This document shows positions 12,329 through 20,601 of a stretch of DNA of 41,914 bases, one piece after another. The DNA is from Beijerinckiaceae bacterium (GTDB taxonomy: Bacteria > Pseudomonadota > Alphaproteobacteria > Rhizobiales > Beijerinckiaceae), in contig JALOTF010000024.1 in NCBI GenBank assembly GCA_025458025.1, positions 1 through 41,914 of the forward strand, in the 5' to 3' direction. Position 1 is the first letter of the stretch, and every line of letters starts with the position of its first letter. The position numbers were made by a program, and so were the translations under genes. The notes beneath the pieces are model-generated. The model did no database searches and was not told the origin of the DNA. It worked only from the letters and a program-made list of their open reading frames with translations.

Positions 12329-14743
12329 CTAGATGCGAGCCTCAAGTGGCCGCAGGTAGCGCACATCGCGGCCGCGGCTCACGGCCTGTGCGGCGTTGAT
12401 GATAGCGTTCGTGTCGATGCCGTGGTGCCGGTAGAGATCGGAGATCGTGCCGGTCTGGCCGAAATGCTCGATGCCCAGCGCCTTCAGCCGATGGCCATAG
12501 ACCCCGCCCAGCCAGGCCAGGGTGGCCGGGTGGCCGTCGATCACGCTCACGATGCCGCATTCGCGCGAGAGCGGCGCGAACAGGCGCTCGATATGGCTCA
12601 TCGCGCCAGCATGTCCGCGCTGGCGGGCGCGTTCCGCCGCCTGAAGCCCGGCATTCAGCCGATCTGCCGAGGTGACAGCCAGAAGCGCCACATCGCGCCG
12701 ATCTTCCGCGAGGAGCCCTGTCGCCGCGATGGCCTCGGGCGCGACGGCACCCTGATAGGCGATGACCACGGAGCAATTCGGCCCCGGTGGGCGCAGCCAA
12801 TAGGCGCCATTCACGATATCGCGGGCGAGATCCGCGCTCATCTCGCGCAAGGGCTGCTCCAGCGGGCGCGTCGAGAGGCGGAGATAAACCGAGCCGCCGG
12901 TTTCATCGCGCAGCCAGGTATGTTCGTCGGGGTCGCCTTCGCCGTCCCGCTGCATGTAATCGAAGGAGAAGCGCAGGATGGTCGCGAGTTCATCCACGAA
13001 GGCCGGCTCGAAAGAGCAGAGCCCGTCCTGCGCCATGCCGATCAGCGGCGTGCCGATGGATTGATGCGCGCCACCTTCCGGCGCGAGCGTCACGCCCGAA
13101 GGTGTCGCCACGAGCAGGAATCGCGCATCCTGATAGCAGGCATAATTCAACTGATCCGCCGAGCGGTAGATGAAAGGATCATAGACTGTGCCGATCGGCA
13201 GCAGGCGCGCGCCATTGATCGAATGCGACAGCCCAAGGGCCGAGAGCATGATCATGAGGTTGGATTCAGCGATTCCCAGCTCGAAATGCTGGCCTTTGGG
13301 TGAGAATTCCCACGTATAGGTCGAGGGAATGCGCTCGGCCTTGAAGAGATCGGCCATGCTTTCCCGCGCGAAAAGCCCGCGCCGGTTCACCCAGCCGCCG
13401 AGATTGGTCGAGACGGTCACATCTGGCGAGGTCGTGACGATGCGGCTCGCGAGGTCGGAATCGAGCTTCGCGATCTCGTTGAGAATCTGCCCGAAGCCCA
13501 TCTGGGTCGAAACCGGTTTGCCACGCTCGGTTGGCACCGGCAATTGCGCGGGAACCGGCACGGCAAGCGAGGAATGGCGGCGCCGCCCCTTGCTGAAGAA
13601 TGTCGCCTGCTTAACGAAGCTTTCGAGCCGGGCGGGATCGAGCTTTGCCCCCTCCCACTTCTCCCATTCCGCACCGGGTCGCACGTTCATGCCCTTGCGG
13701 AACACCTCCATCTGCGTGGGCGTCATCAGCCCGGCATGGTTGTCCTTGTGGCCTGCGAGCGGTAGGCCGAAGCCCTTGATCGTGTAGCAGATGAAAAGCG
13801 TGGGCCGGTCATGCTGCGCGGCCTTCTCGAAGGCTTCGATCAGCGAGGGCAGATCCTGCCCGCCGAGATTGCCCATGAGCGCCGCGAGTTCGGCATCCGA
13901 GCGCTTCTCGATGAGGCGTGTCACTGGGCCCTGATCGCCGATTTCATCCAGAAGGCGCTTCCGCCATGCGGCTCCGCCTTGGAAGGTAAGGGCCGAATAG
14001 AGCTGGTTCGGGCATTGGTCGATCCATTGGCGCAGCCGGTCGCCGCCGGGTTCGGCAAAGGCCGTCTGCTGGAGCTGGCCGTGCTTCACGATCACCACAT
14101 CCCAGCCGAAGCTCTCGAACATGTGTTCGAACTTCTCCCACAGGCCCTCACGCACCACGGCATCGAGGCTCTGGCGGTTATAATCCACCACCCACCAGCA
14201 ATTCCGGAGGCCGTGCTTCCAGCCTTCGATGAGGGCCTCGTAGATGTTGCCCTCGTCCATCTCAGCATCGCCCACGAGCGCGACCATGCGGCCCTCGGGG
14301 CGACCATCCATGAGGCCGTGGGCCTTCACGTAATCCTGCACGAGGCTGGAGAAGAGAGTCTGCGCCACGCCGAGGCCCACGGAGCCGGTGGAGAAATCCA
14401 CGTCATCCACGTCCTTCGTGCGGCTGGGATAGCTCTGCACGCCCTTGAAGCCGCGGAAATTCTGCATCTTCTCCACGGGCAGATTGCCCGCGAGATACTG
14501 GATCGCGTGGAAAATGGGCGAGGCATGCGGCTTTACGGCCACGCGATCCTGCGGGCGCAGGATGTGCCAGTAGAGCGCGGTCATGATCGTCGCCATGGAG
14601 GCCGAGGAGGCCTGATGCCCGCCGACCTTCACCTCATCGCCCGGGCGGACATGGTTCGCGTGATGGATCATCCACGAGGCGAGCCAGAGCGTGCGGCGCT
14701 CGAGTTCGGACAAAACGGCGAGATTGTCAGGGGCGATTGGCAT
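12329..14743 (-). CDS. Thiamine-diphosphate enzyme of the transketolase/homodimeric pyruvate dehydrogenase E1 type
   Basis: 804 residues, between typical transketolases (about 660) and AceE (about 890), and closest in design to AceE/MdeB-like 2-oxoacid dehydrogenases. The N-terminal cofactor domain shows GGHQASSASMATIMTALYW, STGSVGLGVAQTLF and the ThDP/Mg motif GDAEMDEGNIYEAL with a distal VVDYNRQSLD. The central domain shows ESMADLFKAERIP and the glutamate-containing HFELGIAESNLM, followed by the C-terminal transketolase domain (GHPATLAWLGGVYG, HFGQTGTISDLYRHHGID). No E2 or E3 gene is nearby. The divergent Lrp gene resembles the Lrp-regulated MdeB arrangement of Pseudomonas, where the enzyme acts on 2-oxobutyrate, but no methionine lyase is present here. 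Substrate unresolved. Confidence 0.82.
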   Translation of the reverse strand: MPIAPDNLAVLSELERRTLWLASWMIHHANHVRPGDEVKVGGHQASSASMATIMTALYWHILRPQDRVAVKPHASPIFHAIQYLAGNLPVEKMQNFRGFKGVQSYPSRTKDVDDVDFSTGSVGLGVAQTLFSSLVQDYVKAHGLMDGRPEGRMVALVGDAEMDEGNIYEALIEGWKHGLRNCWWVVDYNRQSLDAVVREGLWEKFEHMFESFGWDVVIVKHGQLQQTAFAEPGGDRLRQWIDQCPNQLYSALTFQGGAAWRKRLLDEIGDQGPVTRLIEKRSDAELAALMGNLGGQDLPSLIEAFEKAAQHDRPTLFICYTIKGFGLPLAGHKDNHAGLMTPTQMEVFRKGMNVRPGAEWEKWEGAKLDPARLESFVKQATFFSKGRRRHSSLAVPVPAQLPVPTERGKPVSTQMGFGQILNEIAKLDSDLASRIVTTSPDVTVSTNLGGWVNRRGLFARESMADLFKAERIPSTYTWEFSPKGQHFELGIAESNLMIMLSALGLSHSINGARLLPIGTVYDPFIYRSADQLNYACYQDARFLLVATPSGVTLAPEGGAHQSIGTPLIGMAQDGLCSFEPAFVDELATILRFSFDYMQRDGEGDPDEHTWLRDETGGSVYLRLSTRPLEQPLREMSADLARDIVNGAYWLRPPGPNCSVVIAYQGAVAPEAIAATGLLAEDRRDVALLAVTSADRLNAGLQAAERARQRGHAGAMSHIERLFAPLSRECGIVSVIDGHPATLAWLGGVYGHRLKALGIEHFGQTGTISDLYRHHGIDTNAIINAAQAVSRGRDVRYLRPLEARI

Positions 14744-14854: not shown

Positions 14855-15337
14855 ATGAATTCTGCCAATCCAGCGCTTGATGCCATCGATGCGCGCATCC
14901 TCGCGGCGTTGCAGCGGGATGGCCGTATGACCATCACGGATCTCGCCGAAAAGGTGGGCCTCTCGCCGTCGCCCTGCCTGCGGCGTGTGCGGTTGCTGGA
15001 AGAGGCGGGGGTGATCGCGGGTTATGTCGCGGTGGTTGACCAGAACCGAGTGGGCCTCGAGATCAACGTCTTCGCCTCCATCCGCCTCGAACGCCAGCGC
15101 GAGGACGAGATGGAGCGCTTCAGCGCCGCCGTGGCGCAATGGCCAGAGGTGATGGAATGCTACCTGATGACCGGCACGCGCGATTACCTGATGCGCATCG
15201 TGGTCGGCAGCCTTGGCGAATACGAGCGCTTCATCAAGGACAAGCTCTCGCGGCTGGAGGGCGTGTCTTCCATCGAATCGAGCTTCGCGCTCTCCCGCTT
15301 GAAGCACATCACGGCGGTGCCCATTCGCGCCCGCTGA
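14855..15337 (+). CDS. Lrp/AsnC-family transcriptional regulator
   Basis: 160 residues. The N-terminal helix-turn-helix is DAIDARILAALQRDGRMTIT followed by DLAEKVGLSPSPCLRRVRLL; the C-terminal RAM effector domain contains IAGYVAVVDQNRVGLEINVF, the GxxDYL-type motif TGTRDYLMRIVV and a C-terminal strand ending in KHITAVPIRAR. Length is standard for the family. It is divergent from the transketolase/E1-like gene, which it most likely controls in response to an amino acid or 2-oxoacid. Confidence 0.93.
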   Translation: MNSANPALDAIDARILAALQRDGRMTITDLAEKVGLSPSPCLRRVRLLEEAGVIAGYVAVVDQNRVGLEINVFASIRLERQREDEMERFSAAVAQWPEVMECYLMTGTRDYLMRIVVGSLGEYERFIKDKLSRLEGVSSIESSFALSRLKHITAVPIRAR

Positions 15338-15380
15338 ACCTTGCACGCTTGCCAGATCGATAAAAATTCGGGCTTGATGT

Positions 15381-15405
15381 GAACCTCCTGCGCCGCCCGC
15401 GCGAC
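15381..15405 (+). promoter_or_regulatory. ECF-type promoter in front of the sigma factor gene
   Basis: GAACC at 15381-15385 (TGTGAACC in context) and CGAC at 15402-15405 are separated by 16 bases. The layout (GAAC-type -35, short CG-rich -10) is that of extracytoplasmic-function sigma factors, and the identical pattern with identical spacing recurs at 18325-18349 and 18836-18860. I infer autoregulation of the sigma operon. The predicted transcript start would be about 15411-15413, leaving a short leader before the GTG at 15431. Confidence 0.6.
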
Positions 15406-15430
15406 ACAAGCGTGCAGGCCGAGTTCGAAA

Positions 15431-16000
15431 GTGACGCCGATGGAGAGGGACAGCGACGAGGATCTCGTCCGTCGCATCGCGAAGGGGGATAACCTCGCGA
15501 TGCGGGTTCTCTACGCCCGGCATCACCTGCGCGCCTTCCGGTTTCTACAGCGTCTCCTCAAGGATGAGGCGCTGGCGGAGGATGCGCTGAGCGAGGTCTT
15601 TCTGGATGTGTGGCGGCAGGCGGGCAGTTTCGAGGGACGATCCTCGGTCTCCACCTGGCTCCTCGCGATGGCGCGCAACAAGGCCTGGTCGGCCCTGCGC
15701 AAGCGTCGCGAGAGCGCCCTCGACGAGGGGGTCGCCGAAGCGATGGAGGATGAGGGCGATGACCCCGAAGTGCAGCTTCAGAAGAGCGACAAGGGCGCGG
15801 CAATCCGCGCCTGCATGGAGAAGCTCTCGCCCGAACACCGCGAGGTGCTCGATCTCGTCTATTACCACGAAACCTCGGTGGAGGAGGTCGCGATGATCGT
15901 CCAGATCCCCGAGAACACCGTGAAAACCCGCCTGTTTCACGCCCGCAAGAAGCTCGCGGAGCTTCTGAAATCCAACGGAATCGACCGGGGGTGGCCATGA
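15431..16000 (+). CDS. ECF-type RNA polymerase sigma factor (sigma-70 family)
   Basis: 189 residues with only sigma regions 2 and 4. Region 2 (about residues 20-90) contains LYARHHLRAFRFLQRLLKDE, AEDALSEVFLDVWRQAGSF and STWLLAMARNKAWSALRKRR. Region 4 (about 125-180) contains LSPEHREVLDLVYYHETSVE and the DNA-binding helix-turn-helix VAMIVQIPENTVKTRLFHAR. The start is the GTG at 15431; the ATG at 15440 is an alternative, since neither has a strong ribosome site. Its stop overlaps the anti-sigma start by ATGA, so the two are made in fixed ratio. A matching promoter pattern lies upstream and before two small secreted-protein genes. Confidence 0.94.
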   Translation: MTPMERDSDEDLVRRIAKGDNLAMRVLYARHHLRAFRFLQRLLKDEALAEDALSEVFLDVWRQAGSFEGRSSVSTWLLAMARNKAWSALRKRRESALDEGVAEAMEDEGDDPEVQLQKSDKGAAIRACMEKLSPEHREVLDLVYYHETSVEEVAMIVQIPENTVKTRLFHARKKLAELLKSNGIDRGWP

Positions 16001-16677
16001 GCAATGTGTTGAATGACATGGAGCGCGAGATCGAGGATCTCCTGCCGTTCTATCACAATGGCCGCATCTCTGCTGCTGACCGGGCGCGCGTGGAATCCGC
16101 GTTGAAGACCAGTGCCGAACTGCGCCGCCGGCTCGATCTCATCGCGGAGGAAGCGGAAATCGCGATTGCGCTGAATGAGTCTGTCAGCGGTCCCTCGCCG
16201 CGTGCCCTCGATGCCCTGATGGCGAAGATCGAGGTGGAGCCGAAGCATGCCGCGCATCGGCTCGATGCCGTGAAGCTCGGGTTCATGGAGCGTCTCGGCG
16301 GGCTCATTGGCGCGCTCTCGCCGCGCAAGCTCGCCTATGCTGCGGCCCTCGCGATGGCGGTGATCGCCGCGCAGGGCGTGGTCATAACCGGCATCGTGCC
16401 CGGTGGCCCGGGCGCGCCGCAATACCAGACGGCCTCAGCGCCGGCTGTGAGCGAGGGCAGCTTCGTGCTCGTGTCCTTTGCGCCCGAGGCGAAAGCGAGC
16501 GCGATCGCAGAGCTTCTCAAGAGCCTGAATGCCTCGATCACCGAGGGGCCTCGCGCCAGCGGGCTCTATCGCCTGCGCATCGGCGACAAGGCCTTGCCGA
16601 AGGCGGAGGCCGAGCGCATCATCGCGCGTCTCCAGGCGGCCCGCGATGTGGTCGTCCTTGTCGCGCCCGATCGCTGA
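15997..16677 (+). CDS. Transmembrane anti-sigma factor with propeptide-like periplasmic domain
   Basis: 226 residues from the ATG at 15997, which forms the ATGA overlap and follows a GGGGG ribosome site. Residues 1-60 form the cytoplasmic helical anti-sigma domain (MEREIEDLLPFYHNGRISAA, ARVESALKTSAELRRRLDLI), without a visible zinc HxxxCxxC motif. One membrane segment lies at about 112-132 (LAYAAALAMAVIAAQGVVIT). Residues 155-224 are periplasmic and read as strand (FVLVSFAP), helix (AIAELLKSL), strand, strand (GLYRLRI), helix (AEAERIIARL), strand (VVVLVAP), the layout of an I9-type protease propeptide. It should hold the ECF sigma factor at the membrane. The next gene encodes a subtilase, a candidate partner. 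Confidence 0.82.
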   Translation: MSNVLNDMEREIEDLLPFYHNGRISAADRARVESALKTSAELRRRLDLIAEEAEIAIALNESVSGPSPRALDALMAKIEVEPKHAAHRLDAVKLGFMERLGGLIGALSPRKLAYAAALAMAVIAAQGVVITGIVPGGPGAPQYQTASAPAVSEGSFVLVSFAPEAKASAIAELLKSLNASITEGPRASGLYRLRIGDKALPKAEAERIIARLQAARDVVVLVAPDR

Positions 16678-16687
16678 GGAGGGGAGA

Positions 16688-18304
16688 ATGACCGGCAAAC
16701 GGGGTTCGGTTTCGCTCCTGGCACTGCTCGGTTGGGCTCTGGGCGGCATGGTGCCGGCCTTCGCGATGCCTGTGCCGCATGAGATGCCGGGAGGCTTGTT
16801 GGTCGAGGCCGTGCAGTTCAACGGCCGCGTGCGACCGCAAATGCCTACAGGCGTGGATGGTGGCGGGCGCTCCCCCGGCGGGGGCGGCCGTTTTCCGGGT
16901 GGAGGCGGGATCTTCATTGATCCCGGTCTTCTCATCGGTCCGCTGGTCGAACCACCGCGCGGGCGTCGCGTCATCATCGAGGAATATGATGATGACGAGG
17001 AGGAATTACGCCCGCGTCCGCGGGCGAAACGGCCGCCCGCCCAGCGTGCGGCACCGCCCCGGCAGCCGCCACGCCAGCAACAGGCGCGTCCCGCCGCGCC
17101 GCGCCTTCCGCCGGTGAGCGTGCCGCGCGCCAATGAGCGGCGCTATGTGGCCGATGAGGTTCTGCTCGAATTGCGCGCGGGCGCAGATAATGCCGCCGTG
17201 ATGCGCCGCCACCGGCTGACGCCGCTTTCGACCACCCGCTTCGCGCTCGCCAATGCCACGATCATCCGCGCGCGGGTGGAGGGCGGACGCAATGCCCGGC
17301 AGGTTCTTCAGCAGATGGCGGGGGATGCCCGCATCGCCAGCGCCCAGCCGAATTACCTCTATACCTTGCAGGAGGAACCGGCGAAGCCTGCGGAAAATGC
17401 GGCCCCGGAGGCGCAGAAAGCGAGCATCGCCGCTCCTCCCGCTGAACCACCCCCTGCACCCAAGCCGCAATATGTGCTCGACCGCATGGCGATTGCTGAT
17501 GCGCATCGGCTGGCGCAGGGTGCGAAGGTGAAAGTCGCGCTGATCGATACCGGTCTCGATGATGCGCATCCCGAATTGCAGGGCGTGATTGCCGCGAAAT
17601 TCGACGCGCTCGGCACGGATTCCACCGGCAGTCTCGACCATGGCACGGCGCTCGCGGGTGCGATTGTCGCGAAATCGACCTTGCGCGGTGTGTCGCCGGG
17701 GGCGGAACTGCTTGCGGCGCGTGCGTTCGGCGGCGCTGCGCCCACGGCGCAGGGCACGAGCTTCAACATCCTTCAGGCGCTGGATTGGTCAGCCGAGCAG
17801 GGGGCGCGGGTGTTCAACCTGAGTTTCGCTGGCCCGCAGGATCGGCTGATGGCGCGCACGCTGGAAGGCGCGCAGGCGAAGAAGATCATTGCCATCGCAG
17901 CCGTGGGCAATGCCGGGCCGGGCACCGCACCGCTTTATCCTGCCGCCGAACCTTCCGTGCTGGCCGTCACCGCCACGGATGCCAGCGATGCCGTGTTCAA
18001 CCGCGCGAATACCGGCAGGCAGGTGGCGATTGCCGCGCCGGGCGTGGATGTGATCGCGGCAGCGCCAGAGCGGAACTATGCCTTCTCCTCCGGTACCTCG
18101 ATCGCGGCGGCGCATGTCTCCGGACTTGTGGCCCTGATGCTCGAGAAGAATCCGGGTCTCGATCTTCCGGGTGTCCGGCGGCTTTTGGCGGCTACTGCGC
18201 AAGATCTCGGCCCCAAGGGCAATGATCCTGTCTTCGGGGCGGGGCGCGTGAATGCCGCCGCTGCCGTGGCGCGCGCAGCCGAGGAAGCGGCCAAAAGGCC
18301 CTGA
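16688..18304 (+). CDS. Subtilisin-like (S8) serine protease with signal peptide and prodomain
   Basis: 538 residues from the ATG at 16688 (ribosome site GAGGAGGGGAG). The frame is open further upstream, but that part lies inside the anti-sigma gene. A signal peptide (LLALLGWALGGMVPAFA) is followed by a glycine-, then proline/arginine-rich low-complexity stretch to about residue 145. Next comes a fervidolysin-like prodomain (about 152-224: EVLLELRAGA to SAQPNYLY), a short Pro/Ala linker and the catalytic domain. The triad is D287 (ALIDTGLDD), H318 (LDHGTALAG) and S471 (SSGTSIAAAHVSG), with oxyanion N408 (AVGNAGPG). All catalytic residues are intact. Ten bases after the anti-sigma gene, it belongs to the same operon and may process the anti-sigma factor or secreted targets. 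Confidence 0.92.
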   Translation: MTGKRGSVSLLALLGWALGGMVPAFAMPVPHEMPGGLLVEAVQFNGRVRPQMPTGVDGGGRSPGGGGRFPGGGGIFIDPGLLIGPLVEPPRGRRVIIEEYDDDEEELRPRPRAKRPPAQRAAPPRQPPRQQQARPAAPRLPPVSVPRANERRYVADEVLLELRAGADNAAVMRRHRLTPLSTTRFALANATIIRARVEGGRNARQVLQQMAGDARIASAQPNYLYTLQEEPAKPAENAAPEAQKASIAAPPAEPPPAPKPQYVLDRMAIADAHRLAQGAKVKVALIDTGLDDAHPELQGVIAAKFDALGTDSTGSLDHGTALAGAIVAKSTLRGVSPGAELLAARAFGGAAPTAQGTSFNILQALDWSAEQGARVFNLSFAGPQDRLMARTLEGAQAKKIIAIAAVGNAGPGTAPLYPAAEPSVLAVTATDASDAVFNRANTGRQVAIAAPGVDVIAAAPERNYAFSSGTSIAAAHVSGLVALMLEKNPGLDLPGVRRLLAATAQDLGPKGNDPVFGAGRVNAAAAVARAAEEAAKRP

Positions 18305-18324
18305 AAAAAGAATCGCGGATGTTT

Positions 18325-18349
18325 GAACCCAAAGCCCTCGCCCCGCGAC
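18325..18349 (+). promoter_or_regulatory. ECF-type promoter before the first small secreted-protein gene
   Basis: TTTGAACCC with GAACC at 18325-18329 and CGAC at 18346-18349, 16 bases apart, the same pattern and spacing as before the sigma gene (15381) and before the second small gene (18836). It starts 20 bases after the protease stop, so the small gene probably has its own transcript as well as possible read-through. A 7-3-7 inverted repeat GGGCCGA/TCGGCCC (18361-18377) lies in the leader. Confidence 0.6.
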
Positions 18350-18403
18350 CAACGGGAAGAGGGCCGATGATCGGCCCCTCGCTTGAAACAAGGGAGTTCG
18401 ACC

Positions 18404-18712
18404 ATGGTCATGATCCGCAAATCCACGAGCCTGTTCCTCGGTGCCGTCGCGCTCGCCGGCGCCGCCCTTTCCCTGGTGGGCGATGCTTCCGCCGGCCCCG
18501 GCCGCGGCCATATCGCCCATCCCGGCCATCACGGTCACCATGGCCATGGCATGCACCGCCCGCATCACCGCCCTCATCATGTGTGGCGTGGTCATTACGG
18601 CCCGCGCTTCGTGGGTGTGTATGATGGCGGCTATCGCTGCCGCTTCGTGCGCCGGGTGAATGCCTATGGCGAGCTTGTGGTGCGCCGCGTCTGCTTCAAC
18701 CCCTATTACTGA
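18404..18712 (+). CDS. Small secreted His-rich protein, first of a related pair
   Basis: 102 residues from the ATG at 18404, preceded by AAGGGAG. A signal peptide (about residues 1-27, SLFLGAVALAGAALSLVGDASA) is followed by a histidine/glycine-rich stretch with more than a dozen His in about 35 residues, which could bind metal. The C-terminal module reads CRFVRRVNAYGELVVRRVC followed by an aromatic end. The same module (C-x3-RVN-x-[YF]-GE-x3-RRVC-x3-Y in outline) ends the next gene product. No enzyme motif is visible. With an ECF promoter in front it is a likely envelope-response output. Confidence 0.8.
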   Translation: MVMIRKSTSLFLGAVALAGAALSLVGDASAGPGRGHIAHPGHHGHHGHGMHRPHHRPHHVWRGHYGPRFVGVYDGGYRCRFVRRVNAYGELVVRRVCFNPYY

Positions 18713-18737
18713 TCCCGGCTTTCTCCTGAGCCGGCCC

Positions 18738-18766
18738 ACCAGCCGCCCCCAGCCGGGGCGGCTGGT
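18738..18766 (+). terminator. Strong hairpin after the first small secreted-protein gene
   Basis: ACCAGCCGCCCC (18738-18749) and GGGGCGGCTGGT (18755-18766) form a perfect 12-base stem with a 5-base loop, 26 bases after the stop codon and followed by CTCGTTTCGG. It is a probable terminator, though the T-run is short. Confidence 0.65.
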
Positions 18767-18835
18767 CTCGTTTCGGGCCTTGAATCGCGCTTCCGAAAAA
18801 AGTGGCGATCAGCCAAAAAATTTTTCAACCCGCGT

Positions 18836-18860
18836 GAACCCAAATCGAAGTCGCCGCGAC
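18836..18860 (+). promoter_or_regulatory. ECF-type promoter before the second small secreted-protein gene
   Basis: GTGAACCC with GAACC at 18836-18840 and CGAC at 18857-18860, again 16 bases apart. This is the third copy of the pattern. It follows the 18738-18766 hairpin, so the second small gene forms its own transcription unit. Confidence 0.6.
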
Positions 18861-18910: not shown

Positions 18911-19204
18911 ATGGCCAAGATCCTCACCCGGAAATCCGCCGCTCTCGCCCTTGCCCTCGCCACCCTCGGTTCGGCGGCCCTCATCAGCGGCGCCGAAGCC
19001 CGTCCCCGCCACTACTGGGGCTATGGCGCGGCGGCTGTCGCCGGCGGCCTCGTCCTCGGCTCGGTCCTCGCGGCCTCCTCCGCCCGCAGCGCCCCGGTTT
19101 ATGTGGACGAGGAAGAAGCGCCCCGCCGCTGCCAGACCGTGGAACGCGTGAACCGCTTCGGCGAGGTAATCGGCTACCGCCGCGTGTGCCGCTCGATCTA
19201 CTGA
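18911..19204 (+). CDS. Small secreted protein, second of a related pair
   Basis: 97 residues from the ATG at 18911, with TCAGGAGAAG upstream. A signal peptide (KSAALALALATLGSAALISG, cleavage near AEA) is followed by an Ala/Gly-rich hydrophobic stretch (GYGAAAVAGGLVLGSVLAAS), an acidic patch DEEEA, and the C-terminal module CQTVERVNRFGEVIGYRRVC ending in Tyr. The module is shared with the product of the gene at 18404, while the middle regions differ (His-rich there, Ala/Gly-rich here), so the pair probably arose by duplication and diverged. Function unknown. Two cysteines bracket the module and may form a disulfide. Confidence 0.8.
   Translation: MAKILTRKSAALALALATLGSAALISGAEARPRHYWGYGAAAVAGGLVLGSVLAASSARSAPVYVDEEEAPRRCQTVERVNRFGEVIGYRRVCRSIY

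Positions 19205-19227: not shown

Positions 19228-20601
<1,374 letters not shown>

Follow-up and report, generated by a model that had tools for sequence, protein, structure and literature searches.

How membrane anti-sigma factors sense their signals, and which protease makes the first cut in them, is often unknown. One of the closest described systems comes from Sinorhizobium meliloti, where overexpression of RpoE6, an extracytoplasmic function (ECF) sigma factor of group ECF26, raises the expression of the divergent serine protease gene SMa0142 and of hypothetical genes (PMC6180224). We analysed a locus of similar content in a 41,914-nucleotide stretch of DNA (contig JALOTF010000024.1 of assembly GCA_025458025.1, a Beijerinckiaceae bacterium), which we call the window. 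As in the RpoE6–EcfR6–SMa0142 system (PMC6180224), an ECF sigma factor gene adjoins a gene for a membrane anti-sigma factor, and a serine protease gene, here that of an S8 subtilase, is a probable target of the sigma factor. A preliminary description of the window knew of no account of this exact gene set. A related case with RpoE6 and a serine protease is published, and the genes found here form a variation on that known type; what sets the locus apart from the published case is its promoter motif and the periplasmic part of its anti-sigma factor (PMC6180224).

The promoter elements reported for RpoE6 are GGAATA at −35 and GT at −10 (PMC6180224), whereas the motif at this locus is TGAACC-N16-CGAC. 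A locus of matching layout in strain LMB1, which we took as the RpoE6 counterpart, holds an S8 family gene; its sigma factor is 27% identical to that of the window over 141 residues, and its anti-sigma factor gives no convincing match (4.6 bits) to the prodomain-like domain described below. Membership in ECF26 was considered and rejected: the gene content is similar, with a neighbouring serine protease, but the promoter is TGAACC-N16-CGAC instead of GGAATA/GT and the anti-sigma domain differs. The EcfF–OsrA pair of Bradyrhizobium (ECF16) is also an autoregulated ECF operon, and its promoter, tGTAACc-N16-CGAA, has the same spacing (PMC3420878). It departs from the window in its upstream box (GTAAC against GAACC here), its anti-sigma factor OsrA uses cysteines to respond to H2O2, and the words subtilisin, serine protease and peptidase are absent from that text (PMC3420878).

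Regulated intramembrane proteolysis, in which a membrane anti-sigma factor is cut first outside the membrane and then within it (PMC10202637), is the scheme that we propose for this locus as well. In the text of this review of anti-sigma proteolysis, the terms subtilisin, subtilase, prodomain and propeptide do not occur (PMC10202637). We found no description of an anti-sigma factor with a subtilase prodomain in the open-access literature among the matches listed; searches aimed directly at such a protein listed nothing beyond one paper, on an HtrA protease. Fervidolysin-type subtilases (PF22148 prodomain; structure 1r6v) resemble the enzyme of the window in overall subtilase fold and prodomain fold, as far as the predicted models go, and PF22148 also matches some of the anti-sigma domains; unlike in those enzymes, the prodomain-like domain here is found on the anti-sigma factor too. 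Human site-1 protease is a subtilase as well. There, SPRING dislodges the inhibitory prodomain, licensing cleavage of SREBP2 (PMC11231238). That system is eukaryotic and relies on a partner that displaces the prodomain, whereas in the window a prodomain-like domain seems to sit on the substrate itself (PMC11231238).

The most unusual part of the locus, the one that would surprise a specialist and that the preliminary description did not mention, is the C-terminal end of the anti-sigma factor. Sequence profiles and predicted structures support the reading that the last part of this protein is a periplasmic domain with the build of a subtilase prodomain, akin to that of the subtilase encoded beside it. 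We examined it in 74 loci: the window, 28 loci from its family, five from named genomes (L068, L070–L073) and 40 picked by hand. A search of 149 family genomes with the anti-sigma protein matched 30 of them, 29 strongly; the remaining partial match (G098, 7e-4) was counted among the genomes without the system. The five named genomes were drawn from 48 loci, from which we omitted L069, on the same contig as L039, and 42 others that were remote sigma factors or fragments. The hand-picked loci, mostly one per genus, comprise 35 from the 124 matching genomes among 397 of the order and five from the 32 matching among 385 of the class. The 74 loci thus come mostly from one bacterial order, and because they are related and no tree was used, counts of loci given below are not counts of independent events.

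The subtilase and the anti-sigma factor occur together almost without exception. In each of the 74 loci the anti-sigma gene adjoins the sigma gene (which the end of the contig truncates in L185 and which is split between two frames in L197), and 71 of the 74 carry the subtilase. Two of the three misses fall at contig ends (L042, L193); the third is G041, whose subtilase is encoded on a separate contig, where a copy of the motif and a small His-rich exported-looking protein precede it. Among the family genomes, all 29 with a strong anti-sigma match encode the subtilase (E ≤ 1e-20), while 117 of the other 120 do not at that threshold. The three exceptions (G099, G131, G091) have the three weakest best matches, that of G099 being close to the weakest of the 29. 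The related subtilase of G099 (locus L235) has no anti-sigma gene with it; close by is another small sigma factor, which shares 28% identity with that of the window over 145 residues, and there is no N16 copy of the motif.

In the AlphaFold2 model of the window's anti-sigma factor, the C-terminal domain is predicted with block-mean confidence of 88–96 from residue 161 on, and its order of strands and helices, E-H-E-E-H-E, is that of the subtilase prodomain in its own model. The first three Foldseek ranks for the anti-sigma model were the EpiP protease, a prosubtilisin complex and a subtilisin–propeptide complex (probability 1.00). Further down, several prodomains were mixed with other ferredoxin-like proteins, and the complexes 1scj and 1spb were among the matches. 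The modelled domain has a beta-alpha-beta-beta-alpha-beta fold with its best matches among prodomains. Profile comparison points the same way. When whole-protein profiles were compared, just the anti-sigma domain and the subtilase prodomain aligned (E = 0.0016, hhalign probability 16%), and hhalign of the two domains, built from 74 anti-sigma factors and 71 subtilases, gave a score of 35.7 over 63 columns (E = 3.8e-7, probability 92.9). The best of 100 column permutations scored 15.9 (E = 0.009). Segments outside the two domains reached 13.3 (N-terminal part of the anti-sigma factor) and no more than 13.9 (four stretches of the catalytic domain). Three disjoint halves of the data scored between 33.5 and 35.5, and loci outside the first family set alone scored 33.9. 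Two of ten orthologous domains scanned singly exceeded the cut-off of the PF22148 fervidolysin-prodomain model (27.7 and 24.7 against 21 bits). That model gave no match in a search of 21 close relatives, own genome included, so it is blind to the subtilase's own prodomain too. A search of 190 class genomes with the domain returned eight matches at E < 1e-5, the window among them and the other seven all known anti-sigma matches, and four weaker ones (E from 7e-4 to 0.009).

Between membrane and domain, 57 of the 74 anti-sigma factors carry a linker motif, [YF]x[TV]A[ST], which occurs in none of 222 N-terminal windows of the same proteins. From its position and recurrence, this motif is the best candidate for a recognition site.

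Several results weigh against relating the domain to the prodomain or against the linker as a cut site. The overall predicted template modelling score of the anti-sigma model is only 0.36. Foldseek E-values for the three top structures are weak (0.015–0.016, none reaching 0.001), and the fold class is a common one. The window's own domain scores 15.3 bits against PF22148, below the cut-off of 21, and slightly higher, 18.6 bits, against SPOR, also short of that model's cut-off of 21. A hidden Markov model of the anti-sigma domain found nothing convincing among the 71 subtilases (best E = 0.016), and sequence and profile searches of solved structures found no prodomain; since neither of these searches finds it, the relation rests on profile–profile and fold comparison. 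The strict linker motif is missing from 17 of the 74 proteins. Finally, true prodomains have a C-terminal tail that enters the active site of the protease, as in subtilisin, and the window's domain lacks one, ending two residues past the proline of its last strand (VAPDR), where the subtilase prodomain continues with QPNYLYTLQ. Some orthologues have longer domain tails (L049, L053, L057, L058). On balance we think that homology to the prodomain, or mimicry of it, is probable.

A SPOR-like nature of the domain would lead to another account of the locus, in which the regulon stands but the subtilase is only an output enzyme that processes exported proteins, the domain an unrelated ferredoxin-like sensor, binding peptidoglycan for example, and an ordinary site-1 protease makes the first cut. 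SPOR scored in 10 of 21 domain sequences (best E-value 0.0024, for the window), although none of the 21, nor any of the ten domains scanned singly, reached its cut-off. A profile comparison with SPOR, for which the anti-sigma set was rebuilt from five sure rows to 27 domains, gave 26.4 against at most 15.5 in 60 permutations; the top sequence match among solved structures was an amidase (1x60, E = 0.014), and ferredoxin-like folds are common in the Foldseek list. The prodomain comparison nevertheless outscores that with SPOR and spans 63 columns rather than 45, and no SPOR entry is found among the best 50 of 1260 Foldseek rows. Two orthologous domains pass the prodomain cut-off, whereas among the SPOR matches listed none passes its own, and a SPOR-like sensor leaves the strict co-occurrence with the subtilase unexplained. 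We consider this account a live competitor, though a rather unlikely one.

That the anti-sigma domain resembles the enzyme's own safety cap suggests that the subtilase may operate the lock. Our preferred reading, which we advance tentatively although it is quite possible, is a self-amplifying ECF regulon whose membrane lock is tied to its own protease: the subtilase would bind the anti-sigma factor and be the first to cleave it. Active periplasmic subtilase would dock on the tethered domain as on its own prodomain and would cut the juxtamembrane linker at the conserved [YF]xTAS (site 1). A presumed resident site-2 protease would then make the second cut and free the sigma factor, which would yield more subtilase and more exported proteins, a positive feedback. 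The input signal might be the release of the subtilase from its own prodomain, or exported proteins failing to occupy it. It is quite possible, though we say this with some reserve, that the anti-sigma factor took up the subtilase prodomain as a sensor, so that the protease of the regulon is both signal and first cutter.

The same resemblance could serve the opposite end. The domain might bind free subtilase as an inhibitor or anchor and not as a substrate; the bound enzyme would stabilise the anti-sigma factor and shut the response down, a negative feedback that signals a surplus of protease. Prodomains with this fold inhibit their proteases tightly, as is known for subtilisin; the complexes 1scj and 1spb are in the Foldseek list, and the protease belongs to the regulon. 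We regard this alternative as unlikely, for the window's domain has no C-terminal tail to block the active site, which favours docking over tight inhibition, and the conserved juxtamembrane linker motif better fits a cleavage site. If docking and cleavage by the subtilase are borne out, prodomain mimicry would link transcription directly to the activity of the protease. In such signal transduction the enzyme would announce how active it is by way of a copy of its own inhibitor, and there would be a conceptual parallel with the control of human site-1 protease. Sensor domain, candidate protease, candidate cut site and target promoters lie within about 4 kb and recur in the 74 loci, which makes the mechanism directly testable.

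Turning to the promoters, the preliminary description had reported three copies of TGAACC-N16-CGAC, ahead of the sigma gene and of the two small secreted-protein genes, sp1 and sp2. All three are present on the forward strand at those places (Table 1), compared with a mean of 0.07 copies in 100 dinucleotide shuffles, none of which reached three. A looser pattern, with spacers of 14–18 and without the leading T, shows no clear excess (four matches in the window against 2.0 expected). An exact copy is absent directly ahead of the upstream Lrp-type regulator (14855–15337) and of the downstream FAD monooxygenase (19249–20601). The window's own genome, 97% complete at 3.29 Mb in 153 contigs, holds 21 exact copies of the motif and two of a reversed-pattern control. 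Seven chance frames of at least 100 codons cover the three copies in the window, none with a Pfam match. Because such frames fall on these copies too, each of the 18 copies outside the window was judged by scanning against Pfam whichever covering frame had the strongest codon bias. All 18 frames had a Pfam match, and 17 of the copies sit in or behind the matched domain, ahead of the stop, and so lie within recognisable genes; upstream regions elsewhere in the genome do not carry the motif equally often. The remaining copy (L223, G000:C58:8688-8713) is 64 codons ahead of the Pfam domain and may be intergenic; the frame behind it, on the opposite strand, encodes a glutamine amidotransferase class II domain, and the copy does not fit the stricter family consensus, TGAACC-N15-GCGACNNA. 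That consensus has exactly three copies in the genome, those of the window.

Across the 74 loci the spacing of the two boxes is fixed. Within 1.2 kb upstream of the sigma gene, GAACC-Nn-CGAC with n from 10 to 23 has 57 matches at n = 16 and at most four at any other n, and 55 of the 74 loci have the n = 16 form. Elsewhere in these loci the n = 16 form occurs 34 times on the plus and 29 times on the minus strand, other spacings at most 13 and 14 times. In 54 loci the exact TGAACC-N16-CGAC stands, no farther than −1450, ahead of the sigma gene or of the operon that contains it. A variant differing by one letter and located between −50 and −71 is present in 14 of the remaining 20 (CGTC in ten, CGAACC in three, TGAACG in one). 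Six have neither there: L046, L055, L070, L185, whose contig begins inside the gene, L195 and L205. Near relatives keep the arrangement of the window, with all three copies in L069, of the same genus, those of sigma and sp2 in L068, and those of the two small genes in L070. Chance as the origin of the motif copies was rejected on the strength of the spacing and the conservation.

Two departures from this arrangement were seen. In L046 (from G041) no motif was found ahead of the sigma gene, and a copy lies at +573 relative to it, ahead of the anti-sigma gene, which would let the anti-sigma factor be made separately. In L212, L213 and L214, from distant class members, the motif is about 1.3 kb upstream of the sigma gene, ahead of an exported-looking protein of 384–397 residues, with which the operon may begin; the proteins of L212 and L214 have no Pfam match.

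The motif also leads to genes other than sigma. Leaving aside those that lie up to 90 bases upstream of the sigma gene, the 74 loci hold 61 copies of TGAACC-N16-CGAC. In 54 of these, a frame follows within 260 bases whose start, by a crude rule, looks like a signal peptide, compared with 372 of 1480 random positions judged by the same rule; under a stricter rule the counts are 44 of 61 and 33 of 1480. The most frequent targets are small proteins whose middle is rich in His and Gly and whose C-terminal motif holds two cysteines spaced by about 20 residues. In an alignment of 25 examples neither cysteine varies, partly by choice, since the examples were picked from proteins with at least two cysteines. 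The system also draws attention to a group of small exported proteins that share a two-cysteine motif. Ten larger targets were scanned, of which seven had no family and one each matched DUF6600, DUF11 and DUF7929 above the cut-off.

Two further kinds of protein were seen beside such copies. Large exported-looking proteins of 660–1177 residues (L198:7620-11150(+), L203:1131-4304(-), L207:7436-9421(+), L208:7464-9443(+)) are divergent from sigma, have their own motif copy and have in common an N-terminal segment like GDxxxTGFxG; three of the four have no Pfam match and one matches DUF11. Minus-strand copies in L057 and L058 go with similar proteins of 65–69 residues, with one hydrophobic segment, near the subtilase.

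Away from the sigma locus, the motif tracks the system. Of the 29 family genomes with the system, 28 contain the consensus motif, in 88 copies altogether; of the 120 without it, 36 do, in 50 copies. The reversed control occurs eight and 20 times, respectively. Across the 149 genomes the Mann–Whitney test of this enrichment gives P = 5e-15, with no correction for relatedness. In genomes with the system, seven of the 14 places that hold a homologue of sp2 (E ≤ 1e-3) have a motif less than 250 bases upstream of it, against none of 36 in those without the system; for close homologues (E < 1e-10) the counts are four of five and none of three. Three of the seven motif-linked homologues (G110, G148, G041) are on a contig other than that of sigma or about 93 kb away, and these distant copies precede small exported-looking proteins. 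Sixteen stretches away from the fetched sigma loci were picked by hand from the 88 copies; eight have an exported-looking frame 34–86 bases downstream and, by the same rule, the other eight have none. Overall, sp2 homologues are found in 39 of the 149 family genomes, and 27 of these have no sigma system and, there, no motif.

It would still be conceivable that the motif is the binding site of another regulator, or that the three copies arose by chance, and that the sigma factor has other targets, given that exact copies also arise by chance inside genes. We hold this to be highly improbable. Two boxes at a fixed spacing of 16 resemble an ECF promoter and are conserved ahead of sigma across the order, and the load of motifs, as well as their presence at sp2 homologues, follows the system. 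The compact, self-driven regulon put forward in the preliminary description is therefore well supported by conservation, by the spacing of 16 and by the tracking of the system in 149 genomes. These sequence comparisons also give good support to a sigma factor that recognises promoters resembling TGAACC-N16-GCG(A/T)C and that switches on its own gene and those of the anti-sigma factor, the subtilase and the exported two-cysteine proteins, although control of the promoters by this particular sigma factor is something that we infer.

The features of the locus are listed in Table 1 in their order along the window, with start codons taken from the sequence.

Table 1. Features of the sigma/anti-sigma/subtilase locus, in window coordinates.
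Feature	Position	Strand	Basis
Promoter P1, TGAACC-N16-CGAC, ahead of sigma gene	15380..15405	+	Motif search; spacing and conservation in relatives
ECF sigma factor, ATG start (in-frame GTG at 15431)	15440..16000	+	Sigma70_r2 and Sigma70_r4_2 above Pfam cut-off
Membrane anti-sigma factor, ATG start, ATGA overlap with sigma stop	15997..16677	+	zf-HC2; AlphaFold2 model
Predicted transmembrane segment of anti-sigma factor	16342..16398	+	Best hydrophobic 19-residue window
Conserved linker motif next to the membrane, YQTAS (in the family [YF]x[TV]A[ST]), candidate for the first cut	16423..16437	+	
Anti-sigma periplasmic domain, beta-alpha-beta-beta-alpha-beta, subtilase-prodomain-like	16456..16671	+	Fold and profile comparison
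S8 subtilase, ATG start	16688..18304	+	PF00082, E = 1.2e-39; predicted fold
Subtilase prodomain	17135..17368	+	AlphaFold2 secondary structure; profile match to anti-sigma domain
Promoter P2, ahead of sp1	18324..18349	+	Motif search; all three copies in same-genus locus L069
sp1, small exported-looking His/Gly-rich protein with C-terminal two-cysteine motif, ATG start	18404..18712	+	
Promoter P3, ahead of sp2	18835..18860	+	Motif search; L069
sp2, small exported-looking protein that shares the C-terminal two-cysteine motif of sp1, ATG start	18911..19204	+	

The sigma protein also matches NCBIfam NF009168 above its cut-off (Pfam and NCBIfam scans were read from 15431), and its 189-residue reading contains only the sigma-2 and sigma-4 regions, as expected of an ECF (group IV) sigma factor. 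The putative two-box promoter with a GAAC-type −35 ahead of its own operon fits that assignment. The anti-sigma factor exceeds the Pfam cut-off for zf-HC2 narrowly (23 against 22.2 bits), and 27 of 29 orthologues match at E ≤ 1. With an N-terminal anti-sigma domain and an adjoining sigma gene it belongs to the class I anti-sigma factors. The zinc-binding class I type is defined by an Hx3Cx2C motif (PMC7406223); this motif is absent from the window's anti-sigma protein, which contains no cysteine.

The subtilase consists of an N-terminal signal-like segment, a low-confidence Pro/Arg-rich region, the prodomain and the catalytic domain. Residues D287, H318, N408 and S471 are invariant among 27 orthologues and correspond to the catalytic Asp, His and Ser and the oxyanion Asn of the S8 family. 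Neither sp1 nor sp2 has a Pfam or NCBIfam match, scanned as longer readings from 18383 and 18869.

Just upstream of the sigma promoter, a long frame that by eye resembles transketolase or pyruvate dehydrogenase E1 (12329–14743, minus strand) is divergent from the regulator at 14855–15337 (plus strand), which is of the Lrp/AsnC type. This frame looks unrelated to the regulon.

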